DNA of 22,259 nucleotides from the IMG/VR virus record IMGVR_UViG_3300017755_000124, positions 1-22,259 of that record, one strand, 5' to 3'. This DNA is from a virus. The notes under the pieces are model-generated. The model worked only from the letters and a program-made list of their open reading frames with translations. It did not search any database and was not told the origin of the DNA. Both the position numbers and the translations under genes were made by a program. How positions within the stretch are numbered: the stretch's first letter is position 1; each line of letters opens with the position of its first letter. Below are positions 566 through 22,259 of the stretch, one piece after another.

Positions 566-3052
566 ATGGCAAATGTAAACGGAACTGATATAAACCTTAT
601 GCCTACTGATGGCATGAGGACTGAAGCTAAAAGATATAGAGAATGGAAAAAAGAAGGAGAAGGTGGTGGTACAGATGTTGCTAGAACAAGAGCAACACAA
701 ATATTAAGCGGAAACGAGCTATCAGCAGATACAGTTATTACAATGAACGCATGGTTCGCCCGACACGAATCAGATAAATCAGGGAAAGGCTTCCGTCAGG
801 GGGAAGATGGCTATCCTAGTAATGGTAGAGTAGCTTGGGCTGCTTGGGGCGGTGATGCTGGACAAACTTGGTCTGGTTCAAAGTCTAATTCAATCAAAAA
901 AGCAAGAGAACGCACTATGACTGAAGAAACAAAAACAGAACAAAGAGCCGAGCCTGATGGTTTGAGTGTCGGGGATTTTGTTCGTTGGAACTCTAGTGGA
1001 GGTACAGCTAGAGGAAAAATTGATCGTATCACTAGAGATGGATCAATAGATGTACCTGATAGTTCTTTTACTATTACTGGAACAGCAGAAGACCCTGCTG
1101 CACTTATTACTTTGTATCGAAATGGGGAGGCTACCGATAGAAAGGTCGGTCACAAATTTTCGACACTTACAAAAATTGCAGCGATTAGAAGTGTTGATGC
1201 TGGAGATAGACTTGAACGTAAAGAGGTTACGGACTTCAAAAATGTGAAATCACGCACATTTGAGTTTCCTTTCAGTTCTGAATATCCAGTAAAAAGATAT
1301 TTTGGTAACGAAGTATTAAGCCATGAAGATGGTGCTGCTGATCTTAGTCGATTGAACGATGGCGGTGCAGTTCTCTTCAATCACAATATGGACAAACCCA
1401 TAGGGGTAGTGGAGTCTGCCAGAATTGACTCAGAAACCAAACGAGGTTATGCGAAGATTCGTTTCTCAAGAAATAAGTTTGCATCTGAAGTTTTACAAGA
1501 TGTGTCTGACGGAATACTCAGGGGTATAAGTTTTGGATATAGCATCAATGATATTGATGAGACAGAAGATGGTATGCTTGCTCGGTCATGGTCGGTACAC
1601 GAATTATCGGTTGTAACTGTTCCGGCTGATCCAACAATCGGCTTCGGAAGGAGCTTGATTTCACCCTCACAAGGCAATAGTATTACTATGGAAGATAACT
1701 CCCCCATTGAGGAGATTAATTCTGCGGTTGAATCCGCATCACCCTCGGTTCGCACTATGGAAGAATCAACTAAAGAAACTGCGGTTGATACGGCTAATGA
1801 AGCCGTAGAGATCGACATCAAAGCCGAAGTACAACGTGCTATTGATGAAAATAATGCTCGTACAGCATCAATCACTTCTCTATGTCGTGAGTTCGGAAAG
1901 TATGGAGCAGAAGAGCTTACTGACTCACTTATTAAATCTAATAAGTCACCAGCAGAAGCCAAAGCAGCTATCCTCGATCTTGTGAAGAACAAGGCAGAGG
2001 CCGTAAATACACCAATCCGTTCTACTGACATGAGTACAAATGAAGTTGGCTTAGACCAAAAAGAAGTAAAGAGATTCTCTTTCTTAAGAGCATTAAATGC
2101 TTTAGCGAATCCTACAGATCGTCAAGCTCAAGAAGCAGCAGCTTTTGAGAGAGAAGTATCTGAGGAAGCTTCTAAGAGATATGAGAAACCAGCAAATGGA
2201 ATCTTAGTACCAAACGAAGTTTTAAAAAGAGACTTGAATGTAGGTACAGCAACAGCTGGTGGTAACTTAGTTCCAACAGAATTACTTGCAGGTTCATTTA
2301 TTGACATTCTTAGAAAGAGAATGGCTGTAATGGCAACAAACCCAACAATGTTGACTGGGCTTAGTGGAAACGTGGCTATCCCCCGGATGACCTCTAGTAG
2401 CACCGCTTATTTCGTTGGTGAATCTGGCGCACCTACAGAATCACAACAGGCTTTCGACCAAGTGAACATGACACCTAAGACAGTTGGTGCATTTGTTGAT
2501 TATTCAAGAAGATTATTGCTTCAGTCGTCTATTGATGTAGAGACAATGATTAGAGACGATATTGCGAAGGTTATTGCTACTAAACTTGATAACGCAGCAA
2601 TCTATGGTTCTGGTAGTTCTAACGAGCCTCTTGGAATCAAGGACACAACTGGTGTAGGTACACAGACAATCAGTACATTCGGTACTTTTGCTGAGTACAT
2701 CGGAATGGAAACAGACGTTGCAGCAGCAAACGCTGATGTAGCTAGTATGTTCTATCTAATCAATGCTTCTGCTAGAGGTGCGTTGAAGTCAACAGAAAAA
2801 GCTTCAAGCACAGCACAGTTTGTATTTGAGGATAACTCAATAAATGGCTATCCAGCTATTGTTTCTAATCAACTTGCAAACAACGATGTTCTCTTTGGAG
2901 ACTTCTCACAGTTTGTTATTGGTATGTGGTCTGGCTTAGATCTAACAGTAGATCCTTATGCAAATGCAACTGCTGGTAGCGTAAGAATAATCGCGTTACA
3001 AGATGTCGATTTCGGTGTAAAACAGCCGGGTGCATTTTGTTTCGGAACCTAG
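566..3052 (+). CDS. Maturation protease / major capsid protein polyprotein with N-terminal Tudor-like domain
   Basis: This 828-residue protein reads as four parts. Residues 15-115 form a domain seen beside phage head proteases (EDGYPSNGRVAWAAWGGDAG). Residues 133-204 resemble the Hva1_TUDOR/DUF2945 family (GDFVRWNSSGGTARGKI). Residues 224-365 are an HK97-type (U35) prohead protease, with the probable catalytic His at 273 (LFNHN), Ser at 322 (GISFGY) and the closing ELSVVTVPADP motif. Residues 366-545 are a charged, scaffold-like linker. Residues 546-828 are an HK97-fold capsid protein (NLVPTELLAGSFIDILRKR, later GSGSSNEPLGI). The protease would be expected to remove everything before about residue 541, leaving some 285 residues, close to mature HK97 gp5 (282). 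In-frame ATGs at 1688, 1757 and 2030 could start shorter capsid forms, but none has a clear Shine-Dalgarno. Protease-capsid fusions are known; the Tudor-like part is the less usual element. Confidence 0.93.
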   Translation: MANVNGTDINLMPTDGMRTEAKRYREWKKEGEGGGTDVARTRATQILSGNELSADTVITMNAWFARHESDKSGKGFRQGEDGYPSNGRVAWAAWGGDAGQTWSGSKSNSIKKARERTMTEETKTEQRAEPDGLSVGDFVRWNSSGGTARGKIDRITRDGSIDVPDSSFTITGTAEDPAALITLYRNGEATDRKVGHKFSTLTKIAAIRSVDAGDRLERKEVTDFKNVKSRTFEFPFSSEYPVKRYFGNEVLSHEDGAADLSRLNDGGAVLFNHNMDKPIGVVESARIDSETKRGYAKIRFSRNKFASEVLQDVSDGILRGISFGYSINDIDETEDGMLARSWSVHELSVVTVPADPTIGFGRSLISPSQGNSITMEDNSPIEEINSAVESASPSVRTMEESTKETAVDTANEAVEIDIKAEVQRAIDENNARTASITSLCREFGKYGAEELTDSLIKSNKSPAEAKAAILDLVKNKAEAVNTPIRSTDMSTNEVGLDQKEVKRFSFLRALNALANPTDRQAQEAAAFEREVSEEASKRYEKPANGILVPNEVLKRDLNVGTATAGGNLVPTELLAGSFIDILRKRMAVMATNPTMLTGLSGNVAIPRMTSSSTAYFVGESGAPTESQQAFDQVNMTPKTVGAFVDYSRRLLLQSSIDVETMIRDDIAKVIATKLDNAAIYGSGSSNEPLGIKDTTGVGTQTISTFGTFAEYIGMETDVAAANADVASMFYLINASARGALKSTEKASSTAQFVFEDNSINGYPAIVSNQLANNDVLFGDFSQFVIGMWSGLDLTVDPYANATAGSVRIIALQDVDFGVKQPGAFCFGT

Positions 3053-9315: not shown

Positions 9316-9887
9316 TGACCACAGTTCCATTTACCGATCTTCAATCTATTAATCCCTCTGCAATTATTGAATTGTATGAGATTGCTTTAGATGCCACTTT
9401 ACATGGTTCGTCAGATGTCTTGCGTTTTCATAATGGAACACAATTAGTAAGTAATGGAAATATAAAATTTGCAACTAACACTTACACCAAGTTTCCTATT
9501 GAATGTAAAGGTTTTGAATATACATCTGGAGGTCAATTTCCAAGACCTACTATTACTGTTAGTAATGCAAGTGGTTTTATAACTGCTACTTTGGCAACGA
9601 TAACAACAGTAGGAAAAGACTTGGTTGGAGCAAAATTCACAAGGATAAGAACACTTGCAAAATTTTTAGATGATGATAACTTTCCAAGTAGTGTTAATCC
9701 TTTTGGTACAGCATCTCCTACAACAAAATTTCCCGATGAAATATATTTTATTGATAGAAAGATGACAGAAAATAGAGAAGCTGTACAATGGGAGGCAGCA
9801 AGTGCTTTAGACTTAACAAATGTAAAAATTCCAAAAAGAATTACAGGGGTAGAATTATTCCCTTCAATAGGTAAATATGTAGGATGA
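9315..9887 (+). CDS. L: Minor tail protein L, lacking the C-terminal cysteine-rich part
   Basis: 190 residues, shorter than lambda gpL (232). The opening of the protein and the segment FPIECKGFEYTSGGQFPRPT followed by ITVSNASGFITATL are characteristic of Phage_tail_L proteins, as is RIRTLAKFLDDDNFP and a later EIYFIDRKMTENREAVQWE. In lambda, gpL ends in a cysteine-rich domain that binds a [4Fe-4S] cluster. Here the protein stops at KRITGVELFPSIGKYVG, before that region, and only one cysteine (near residue 64) is present. gpL forms the ring that joins the tip protein J to the tube. The stop codon overlaps the start of the K homologue (ATGA). Confidence 0.88.
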   Translation: MTTVPFTDLQSINPSAIIELYEIALDATLHGSSDVLRFHNGTQLVSNGNIKFATNTYTKFPIECKGFEYTSGGQFPRPTITVSNASGFITATLATITTVGKDLVGAKFTRIRTLAKFLDDDNFPSSVNPFGTASPTTKFPDEIYFIDRKMTENREAVQWEAASALDLTNVKIPKRITGVELFPSIGKYVG

Positions 9888-10585
9888 CTTGGAAAGAAGA
9901 AGCGTTAGAACACGCAAAAAAAGAATCACCTTTTGAATCTTGCGGTTTGCTAATAGTTTTTGAAGGTAAAGAAAAATATTGTCCATGCAAAAACTTAGCA
10001 GAAGATAAAACCGATCAATTTATAATTGATCCTGAAGACTGGATTCATTATGAAGATCAAGGAGAAATTTTAGCAGTAATTCATAGCCATCCTTTTGATA
10101 CTTGTTTTCCAAGTCAAGCAGATTTAGCTTCTTGTGAATATTTAAATTATCCTTTCTATATAATTGGACTTGTTGATAACTTATGGCATAAATTTGAGCC
10201 TAGTGGTTATCAATCACCTTTGTTGGGTCGTACATGGGTATGGGGTTCTCAAGATTGTGTTTCTCTTTGTTATACATGGTATAAAGAAAATAGAAATATT
10301 ATTTTAAGAGATTGGGCAAGACCTAGATCTATAAAAGAATTTTATAAAAACATGAACTTTGGTAATTTAATAGAACAAACAGGATTTAAAAAACTTGAAA
10401 AAAATCAACCCTCAGAGATAGGAGATGTAATATTATTTGGTGAACATAATGGTGAACAGACTCACATAGGTTTATATATTGGAAATCAAACAATGCTTCA
10501 TCATCAGATAAGAAAATTGAGTTGCAGGGAATTTTATGGTAAAAATTGGTTAGAATTAACTTTAGATAGGTATAGGTATGCGTAA
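9884..10585 (+). CDS. K: Tail assembly peptidase K: JAMM metalloprotease plus NlpC/P60
   Basis: 233 residues in two enzymatic domains. The N-terminal half is a JAB/MPN (JAMM) domain: Glu18 in PFESCGLL, then the metal-binding HSHP (His67, His69) with Ser77 and Asp80 spaced as H-x-H-P-(x)6-S-x-x-D. The C-terminal half is an NlpC/P60 cysteine peptidase: Cys125 in WGSQDCVSLCYTWY, and His194 in THIGLYIG. All key residues appear intact. In lambda-like phages gpK is needed for tail-tip assembly and may also cut peptidoglycan during entry. It overlaps gene L by 4 bases (ATGA) and the next gene by 8 bases, so this run is likely translationally coupled. Confidence 0.93.
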   Translation: MTWKEEALEHAKKESPFESCGLLIVFEGKEKYCPCKNLAEDKTDQFIIDPEDWIHYEDQGEILAVIHSHPFDTCFPSQADLASCEYLNYPFYIIGLVDNLWHKFEPSGYQSPLLGRTWVWGSQDCVSLCYTWYKENRNIILRDWARPRSIKEFYKNMNFGNLIEQTGFKKLEKNQPSEIGDVILFGEHNGEQTHIGLYIGNQTMLHHQIRKLSCREFYGKNWLELTLDRYRYA

Positions 10586-20765: not shown

Positions 20766-20885
20766 TCACAGTCTGTTTCTACTTCTAATCTTTGTTAAGT
20801 AACCTGCGGTTAGATATATAGGTGTAAGTGACGTTATTGTTGTTATTGCTAAGATATAAATACAAGCATATATAATCTTTTTCAT
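20766..20885 (-). CDS. Possible 39-residue membrane protein on the opposite strand
   Basis: A short frame on the minus strand, MKKIIYACIYILAITTITSL followed by TPIYLTAGYLTKIRSRNRL. A lysine-rich start, one hydrophobic segment of about 24 residues and a basic tail make a typical small inner-membrane protein. Its start codon overlaps the start of the next + strand gene through a CATG palindrome at 20883-20886. It would be the only minus-strand gene in the window, and no Shine-Dalgarno lies upstream. The + strand of 20721-20883 holds no convincing gene. Confidence 0.35.
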   Translation of the reverse strand: MKKIIYACIYILAITTITSLTPIYLTAGYLTKIRSRNRL

Positions 20886-21102
20886 GCTAAATAAAATTTG
20901 TCAGGTTCTTTCAATTCTCTCATTTTTGAGTGTTGTAACAATAGGAGTAGGAGGATTTGTTGGTTATCGTTACTTAAAAAGTCCAGAATTTGAAAGGACA
21001 TTAAAAAATAAAATTATGGGCGATTTACAAAAAGCAATGCCAAAGGCTATCGAAAAAGCAATACCAAAAACTACAGGAATATCATTACCAATAAAATTAT
21101 GA
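20884..21102 (+). CDS. Small single-pass membrane protein, function unknown
   Basis: 72 residues. A hydrophobic segment at residues 7-30 (VLSILSFLSVVTIGVGGFVG) is followed by YRYLKSPEFERTLKNKIMGD and an amphipathic, lysine-rich tail (AMPKAIEKAIPKTTG) with two similar MPKAIEKA / IPK units. The layout suggests an N-terminal membrane anchor with the tail in the cytoplasm or in the virion. I recall similar proteins in marine cyanophages but cannot name a function; a holin or spanin role is possible only on size and anchor. There is no Shine-Dalgarno. A perfect TATAAT (20871-20876) lies just before the ATG and could be a -10 element giving a nearly leaderless transcript. The stop overlaps the next start (ATGA). 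Confidence 0.65.
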   Translation: MLNKICQVLSILSFLSVVTIGVGGFVGYRYLKSPEFERTLKNKIMGDLQKAMPKAIEKAIPKTTGISLPIKL

Positions 21103-21266
21103 ACTGTTGGCATTGTCATACTGAATTAATTTGGGGTGGAGATCACAGCATGGATGGAGAAGATTATCCAACAACATCTACTGAATACAGTATGGTAACT
21201 AATTTGTCTTGTCCTAACTGTCAGTCTTTTGTAGAAGTATATAAACCAAGAGATGCCTACGATTAA
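21099..21266 (+). CDS. Small zinc-ribbon protein
   Basis: 55 residues, starting MNCWHCHTELIWGGDHSMDG and ending VTNLSCPNCQSFVEVYKPRD. Two C-x-x-C knuckles (Cys3/Cys6 and Cys38/Cys41), 31 residues apart, make a treble-clef or zinc-ribbon fold very likely. Its start overlaps the stop of the upstream gene (ATGA) and its stop overlaps the next start (TAATG), so it belongs to the same coupled run. Similar small zinc-binding proteins occur in many phages, including marine ones, as far as I recall, without an assigned role. It could bind nucleic acid or a host protein; the sequence alone does not say. The conserved cysteines and tight overlaps make it a real gene despite its length. Confidence 0.8.
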   Translation: MNCWHCHTELIWGGDHSMDGEDYPTTSTEYSMVTNLSCPNCQSFVEVYKPRDAYD

Positions 21267-21487
21267 TGATTTTTGGGTTTTTAAAAAAATTAGTTAAATA
21301 TTACGTTGATAAATTAATTCATTGGATGCGAATGAAAAAATTTAATTTAGAACTTGATAATGACATAAAAAAGTATCATCAACAATTAGATAAAAATATA
21401 AAGAAACCAAAGATTATAGAAACTGGTAAGTTTGGAGAAGATGGGTGGTCTATTTCTATTGGAGAGGTAGAAGATGGAGATACCTGA
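21266..21487 (+). CDS. Small basic protein with amphipathic N-terminus, function unknown
   Basis: 73 residues. The first 25 (MIFGFLKKLVKYYVDKLIHW) are hydrophobic and lysine-rich and could lie on or in the membrane. The middle (LELDNDIKKYHQQLDKNIKK) is a charged helix, and the end (GKFGEDGWSISIGEVEDGD) looks like a short beta hairpin. It starts on the last base of the preceding stop (TAATG) and overlaps the next gene by 14 bases in another frame. I do not recognise a family. Its place between two membrane-associated neighbours suggests a shared task at the membrane, which is inference only. Confidence 0.6.
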   Translation: MIFGFLKKLVKYYVDKLIHWMRMKKFNLELDNDIKKYHQQLDKNIKKPKIIETGKFGEDGWSISIGEVEDGDT

Positions 21488-22115
21488 GATAAAAGTACCA
21501 AAGATTGATGTTCCATTAATTAATAACAATATAAATAATCCTTTTCAAGTATTAAACGTACCAATGCCATCTTTGATGATGCCCGGTTGTGTACGTTATC
21601 ACAGAGATGCTAGTCCAAAAAATACTGCATTATATGATGATGACCCTACTGGTACTGTAGTCAGTTGTCCTTATGGTTCAATGCCATCATTTGAACCTCT
21701 GTTATATGACAGAAGAAAAATTGAAATAGTTGAGACTAAAGAAGAAGAAAATAAAACAGCAGAGAATGAAACAATAAAACCTGAAACCAAGAAAACTGAT
21801 ATACCAAAGAAGAAAGAAGAAGATGTATTTATAGAATGTCCAAATTCAAAGACTCAGAGAGTTGGAGATTTTCGTAACGAAAAACGATTGGAACGTGTAA
21901 AAGGCCATGAATTAAGTGAAGATGGGACTAGATGTATAACTCTCTATGAAGACGTACCGTTCAAGGATCAGTACATTCCAGAAGTTTCTACTATTGTATC
22001 TACTGCTGTTATTGGCTTGGTCGCTGCCAGTAGTCCACTTCTTCTTAATATCATCAAACCGCTAGTAAAAAATATCGTTAAAAAGCTGAAAAAGAAGAAA
22101 GATAAGGTACAATAA
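21474..22115 (+). CDS. Tail-anchored protein of unknown function
   Basis: 213 residues. The start is well supported by a purine-rich GGAGAGGTAGAAG just before the ATG, within the preceding gene. Residues 1-35 are proline-rich (IPEIKVPKIDVPLI). Residues 39-80 form a likely folded part with CVRYHRDASPKN and DDDPTGTVVSCPYGSMPSFE. Residues 86-117 are a glutamate/lysine linker. Residues 118-165 form a second folded part (VFIECPNSKTQRVGDFRNEK, then CITLYEDV). A hydrophobic segment at 172-195 (VSTAVIGLVAASSPLLLNII) is followed by a strongly lysine-rich C-terminus, giving a tail-anchored topology. The four cysteines (39, 65, 122, 154) are split two and two between the folded parts. I recall comparable proteins in marine cyanophages but know no function. 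It is the last gene before the terminator. Confidence 0.75.
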   Translation: MEIPEIKVPKIDVPLINNNINNPFQVLNVPMPSLMMPGCVRYHRDASPKNTALYDDDPTGTVVSCPYGSMPSFEPLLYDRRKIEIVETKEEENKTAENETIKPETKKTDIPKKKEEDVFIECPNSKTQRVGDFRNEKRLERVKGHELSEDGTRCITLYEDVPFKDQYIPEVSTIVSTAVIGLVAASSPLLLNIIKPLVKNIVKKLKKKKDKVQ

Positions 22116-22121
22116 ATAGGC

Positions 22122-22178
22122 AAAGCAACTCTTAATCAAGCTCCAAGCCAATAGTTAAGGGCGAGCTTTTGCTTTTTT
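22122..22178 (+). terminator. Rho-independent terminator after the last gene
   Basis: AAAGCAA (22122-22128) pairs with TTGCTTT (22169-22175), and AAGCTC (22138-22143) with GAGCTT (22163-22168), leaving a 9-base bulge on the left arm; an inner GCC/GGC pair (22147-22149 with 22160-22162) can extend the stem. Six T (22173-22178) follow, partly within the stem. It lies 6 bases after the last stop. Confidence 0.7.
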
Positions 22179-22205
22179 AGACAAGTAACTACTCGTAGCT
22201 TGTCT
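22179..22205. repeat. Inverted repeat directly after the terminator
   Basis: AGACAAG (22179-22185) pairs perfectly with CTTGTCT (22199-22205); inside, CTA CTCG TAG adds a 3-bp stem with a 4-base loop, with TAA bulged. No T-run follows on either strand, so it is not a standard terminator by itself. It may stabilise the 3' end or be a protein site. The remaining bases to 22259 hold no gene that I can support. Confidence 0.5.
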
Positions 22206-22259
22206 ATTTAAAAATTTTCAAATGTAGTTACTATATAAATAGAAGTAGAAGATTCTTAA

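Follow-up and report, generated by a model that had tools for sequence, protein, structure and literature searches.

A conserved gene pair from a cassette of membrane and exported proteins in three kinds of marine cyanophage, with a possible role in lysis

T4-like cyanophages have been reported to carry a 'mobile hypothetical cluster', T4-GC 218/219/234/235/237, as a mobile cassette linked to a 'plasmid stability' gene (GC 414); S-PM2 was reported without it (Sullivan et al. 2010, PMC3037559). We find the cassette in the T4-like phages S-ShM2, P-SSM4, metaG-MbCM1, S-SSM4 and Sf-FS3, where the order is T4-GC 218, (414), (219), 234, 235, (236), 237. T7 offers a different point of reference. Its record places holin 17.5 between the fibre and terminase genes and spanins 18.5/18.7 (Rz/Rz1) between the two terminase genes; our T7 holin control query matched T7 and T7-like records at 98.5-100%, which confirmed it. 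In the T7-like cyanophage P-SSP7, the block PSSP7_042-045 lies between fibre gene gp17 and the terminase genes.

Lysis of Prochlorococcus and Synechococcus by marine cyanophages matters for ocean carbon flow. These phages are listed as spanin-less in a spanin survey, which suggested as an alternative a C-anchored inner-membrane protein together with an outer-membrane protein. We found no report naming a cyanophage holin.

A conserved pair and a variable slot

The window, the whole stretch of DNA analysed here, is a virus contig of 22.3 kb that encodes portal, capsid, tape-measure, tail and fibre proteins. Among its other genes, an 828-aa ORF at 566-3052 (+) apparently joins the major capsid protein to a head maturation protease region (matches to phrog_617, phrog_4523 and phrog_80), and a tail protein with JAB and NlpC/P60 domains at 9884-10585 (+) is a probable tail-associated peptidase. 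Four ORFs, A to D, lie near its end on one strand (Table 1). A first-pass annotation had described four small genes overlapping by 1 to 14 bases, in agreement with the successive overlaps of 4, 1 and 14 bases in the ORF list. Because each has homologues elsewhere, we take all four to be genes and not chance ORFs.

Table 1. Positions of the predicted features in the window
Feature	Position	Strand	Description	Evidence
Microprotein ORF	20766..20885	-	39 aa, single TM, divergent from A	minus-strand sequence, family HMM, substitution bias
Gene A	20884..21102	+	72 aa, N-terminal TM, phrog_568	phrog_568 E = 8.6e-7, hydropathy
Gene B	21099..21266	+	55 aa, two CxxC pairs, zinc-ribbon-like, probable cargo	ORF sequence, Pfam, homologue neighbourhoods
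Gene C	21266..21487	+	73 aa, basic, amphipathic N-terminus, phrog_6464, probable cargo	phrog_6464 E = 4.5e-6
Gene D	21474..22115	+	213 aa, tail-anchored, four invariant Cys, phrog_570 (T4-GC 234 family)	phrog_570 E = 2.4e-42
Two stem-loops	22118..22206	.	3' of D, probable terminator region before expected convergent E	joint folding z

We fetched 80 relatives of D from IMG/VR and clustered their neighbouring genes; as the relatives were retrieved via D, counts of D itself are biased. A and D proved to be a near-constant pair, both being present in 72 loci. Between them there was nothing at 23 loci, B at 21, C at 14 and B with C at 4, and in the rest the slot was mixed, with a second A-like gene or with unrelated genes. 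One such insert is a staphylococcal-nuclease homologue, and another may be a 2OG-Fe(II) oxygenase. Homologues of B adjoin gp45 in T4-like cyanophages and occur also in Pelagibacter and Puniceispirillum phages, and C-like sequences are found at other T4-like cyanophage sites and, in T7-like P-RSP2, directly upstream of H, a gene of the cassette discussed below. Because the content of the slot varies and B and C have homologues elsewhere, the two are best read, from these neighbourhoods, as cargo between the conserved A and D.

The first-pass annotation had suggested that the four genes are one functional unit, a candidate undescribed system to be sought as a conserved block in marine phage genomes. 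We reject that unit as stated, since B and C are optional and present elsewhere, and the exact order A-B-C-D is found at only 4 of the 72 loci; it is the A-D pair that is conserved. Genes lying apart in unrelated places, named there as evidence against the unit, are seen for B and largely for C, whereas A and D stay paired. Nor is the system undescribed, as most of the cassette to which A and D belong was already reported in 2010 as a hypothetical-gene cluster in T4-like cyanophages. The same annotation called three of the genes membrane-associated, which holds for A and D but not fully for C. By hydropathy heuristics, on which all our TM and signal-peptide calls rest, A has a single TM segment (residues 8-26) followed by a short tail, D has a hydrophobic stretch (168-186) followed by a lysine-rich tail, and C has no TM, leaving it an amphipathic candidate. 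The Pfam zinc-ribbon matches of B all fall below curated cut-offs. As for the common terminator, two stem-loops do follow D, at 22118-22174 and 22178-22206 (joint folding z = -3.6 for 22110-22215), but a strict terminator scan detected none there.

The family of A is labelled 'plasmid stability', and we reject this role. A has no Pfam match, no NCBIfam match above cut-off and no stability or antitoxin domain, only the TM helix and its short tail. Divergent from A is the 39-aa ORF, absent from the first-pass annotation, which runs from 20885 down to 20766; its start ATG and that of A share one CATG palindrome. A family HMM detects this microprotein ahead of A at 65 loci, among them that of the window (E = 1.2e-5 for the window). 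Substitutions among close members number 87/55/230 at codon positions 1/2/3, and this concentration at position 3 argues that the ORF is coding. The Prochlorococcus siphovirus P-HS2 carries it too, unannotated.

The S-ShM2 homologue of D is labelled GC 234, and the four cysteines do not vary in 42 homologues. D lacks a signal peptide, and its large N-terminal domain may therefore lie in the cytoplasm. A lipobox pattern occurs in 12 of 85 D proteins, but in these it falls on a conserved Cys inside the protein and is not preceded by a signal peptide. Among close relatives (D of the window compared with L006:2893-3534), the C-terminal TM region differs sharply and the N-terminal part is nearly identical, which suggests mosaic exchange of the anchor.

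The other half of the cassette and its distribution

The window stops 144 nt after D, and the genes E, F and H of relatives would fall beyond this point. In 62 of 63 relatives having at least 1.2 kb after D, D is convergent with E. E is followed by F, sometimes with a second copy (phrog_564; phrog_650/DUF6322), then in most loci long enough by H (DUF6450, phrog_721/2714), and then often by divergent small genes. Judging from these relatives, the unit probably extends past the contig end, a point the first-pass annotation overlooked, and E, F and H would be encoded on the opposite strand just beyond it. After H there is often a group of three small genes on the plus strand, of 53, 54 and 92 aa (L005:5693-6324 and many relatives), and the 54-aa family (j54) also adjoins the cassette in T7-like cyanophages. 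At two loci (L003:9348-9513, L098:3771-3826) E and the exported-protein gene preceding it overlap in different frames at the 3' end of the latter, which recalls the Rz/Rz1 overlap.

E has four invariant cysteines. Most E and F proteins have a signal-peptide-like N-terminus; by our heuristic, 65 of 74 E proteins and 84 of 87 F proteins have the hydrophobic segment. H is small, with a layout of two TM helices and charged ends; it matches only DUF6450/phrog_721 and no known holin family. A lipobox search returned 0/74 E, 1/87 F, 0/78 A and 0/59 H. The structure models of D and E were poor. A TolC-like fold for E, guessed from beta strands followed by a long helix, was dropped, as the model is poor and a PDB fold search with E gave no match. 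Nothing turned up in the literature under DUF6450, DUF6322 or the names of these gene clusters.

D-like genes occur in 386 phage records and E-like genes in 453 of 50,697, all of them cyanophages or uncultured marine viruses. The cassette is present in P-HS2, and in T4-like phages it is recognizable as the T4-GC cluster: D is of the GC 234 family, A of the 'plasmid stability' family, and the E, F and H of relatives correspond to GC 235, 236/237 and 218, with D and E convergent in both. The arrangements differ in that H lies at the far end of the minus-strand operon in our relatives and before D in T4-likes, and in that here GC 219 is missing, B and C have been inserted and the divergent microprotein precedes A. 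With H heading the operon of D in T4-likes, the set has been kept while its order changed.

HMMs built here found H, F and E in 9 of 9 T7-like cyanophages examined. A D-like tail-anchored gene is present in seven (P-SSP7, P-GSP1, NATL2A-133, P-SSP10, 9515-10a, S-TIP37 and P-SCSP1m), matched to D mainly by place and layout, the homology being weak (hhalign probability 44%). In PSSP7_042-045, genes for a tail-anchored protein, H, F (DUF6322) and E follow the fibre genes as a single block, but all share one strand and A is missing; the D-like protein is shorter than D, lacks the cysteines and has only weak profile similarity to D. P-SCSP1m has the order D-like, E, F, H, j54, in a convergent layout as in siphoviruses. 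On gene content and order, A and D belong to a membrane and exported-protein cassette common to three unrelated kinds of marine cyanophage. As far as we searched, what is new is that siphovirus-like and T7-like cyanophages carry the cassette, that it occupies the T7 holin interval, that a microprotein diverges from A, and that B and C are read as cargo.

Possible roles at the host envelope

We propose, with a probability of roughly 0.48, that the cassette is a lysis or envelope-breaching module, which would breach the picocyanobacterial envelope at the end of infection. The window would then hold its left half, A and D with cargo B and C, and the right half would be E, F and H on the opposite strand. 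H, with two TM segments and charged ends, could serve in the inner membrane as a holin-like trigger. D and A, with one inner-membrane helix each, would reach towards exported E and F, E probably having two disulfides, and the four, perhaps as a complex, would take the part of the missing spanins Rz/Rz1 and break up the wall and the outer membrane. The 39-aa microprotein may tune A, either as an antagonist or by antisense overlap of the two mRNA leaders. The membrane unit for lysis or host takeover suggested by the first-pass annotation would survive in this form for A and D, within a cassette of three tail types, and not for all four genes.

The lysis reading draws on the near-invariant D-E convergence, followed by F and usually H, and on the recurrence of the same set in three kinds of phage. 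In P-SSP7 the cassette occupies the interval that in T7 contains holin 17.5. Like the T7 genes, the cassette lies between the fibre and large terminase genes, with a small TM protein near envelope proteins; unlike them, it has no lipoprotein o-spanin, its exported proteins are larger, E carries four conserved cysteines, and homology to 17.5 or 18.5/18.7 is not detectable. A C-anchored D with exported proteins also fits the outline of the alternative spanin suggested in the survey. In P-SCSP1m, moreover, the proteins tested gave no match to a known lysis family, except for an SLT domain in a gp16-like virion protein. More tentatively, it is tempting to speculate that T4-like, T7-like and siphovirus cyanophages may all leave the host by one non-homologous lysis system, a DUF6450 holin with a tail-anchored-plus-exported set replacing Rz/Rz1, which passed between unrelated phage lineages because it suits the envelope of picocyanobacteria.

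Several observations count against lysis. The cassette proteins show no holin-family, endolysin or spanin homology, no consistent lipobox and no peptidoglycan hydrolase, so a canonical holin-endolysin-Rz/Rz1 cassette is not what we see. The possibly cytoplasmic N-terminal domain of D is a further point against. T4-GC 219 (phrog_605; L091:4237-4851, L092:5536-6129) was considered as a hidden endolysin and rejected: it is N-anchored with a glycine-rich hydrophobic C-terminal region and has no Pfam match. T4 late promoters are not consistently found upstream of the T4-like cassette, and we do not use them as evidence of timing.

In T4-like phages the cassette sits among replication genes, and one lineage, represented by S-PM2, was reported to do without it. 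Both facts count against lysis and would suit a different role, in which the cassette remodels the host envelope without lysing the cell. E and F would then be placed in the periplasm or at the outer membrane, with A, D and H at the inner one, and the result could be superinfection exclusion, a change in transport or a protected infected cell. A cassette made up only of membrane and exported proteins would suit it as well. Exclusion genes are usually lineage-specific, which we count against this role. The cassette is moreover retained in P-SCSP1m, at 37.8 kb the smallest cyanopodovirus genome examined, and sits at the T7 holin interval, and on balance we find remodelling without lysis the less likely of the two roles.

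It seems improbable that the cassette is a mobile passenger kept by a plasmid-stability gene, following Sullivan et al. 2010. Its variable position, its inserted genes and the annotation of A would be explained, but A lacks any plasmid-stability or antitoxin domain, and phages of three tail types have retained the set as a group, a hint that its function is under selection. Our finding questions the view of the cluster as a mobile, plasmid-stability-linked curiosity of T4-like phages. Similarly improbable are virion or entry components made beside the fibre genes, which the cassette adjoins in siphovirus-like and T7-like phages, given the signal-peptide-like N-termini of E and F, the TM segments of A, D and H, and the distance of the T4-like cassette from tail genes.

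If the cassette does serve in lysis or envelope breaching, its presence in three tail types and at the T7 holin interval provides a short list of genes to test, H, E, F and D. Of the T7-like cyanophages carrying them, S-TIP37 is now open to engineering (PMC8776855).

The restriction of D-like and E-like genes to cyanophages and uncultured marine viruses points to a host-specific task, which we count in favour of lysis. A search of cellular genomes for E with a single conserved motif gave three matches; two of these loci were inspected, both in assemblies of single cells, and they look viral. Three unrelated genes lie between E and D in one of the contigs, from a Prochlorococcus single cell (L102:5921-7530), so the convergent D/E junction tolerates insertions. 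The cassette also occurs on a virus-like contig of an alphaproteobacterial single-cell assembly (L101), where hosts beyond cyanobacteria or a co-sorted virus are possible.
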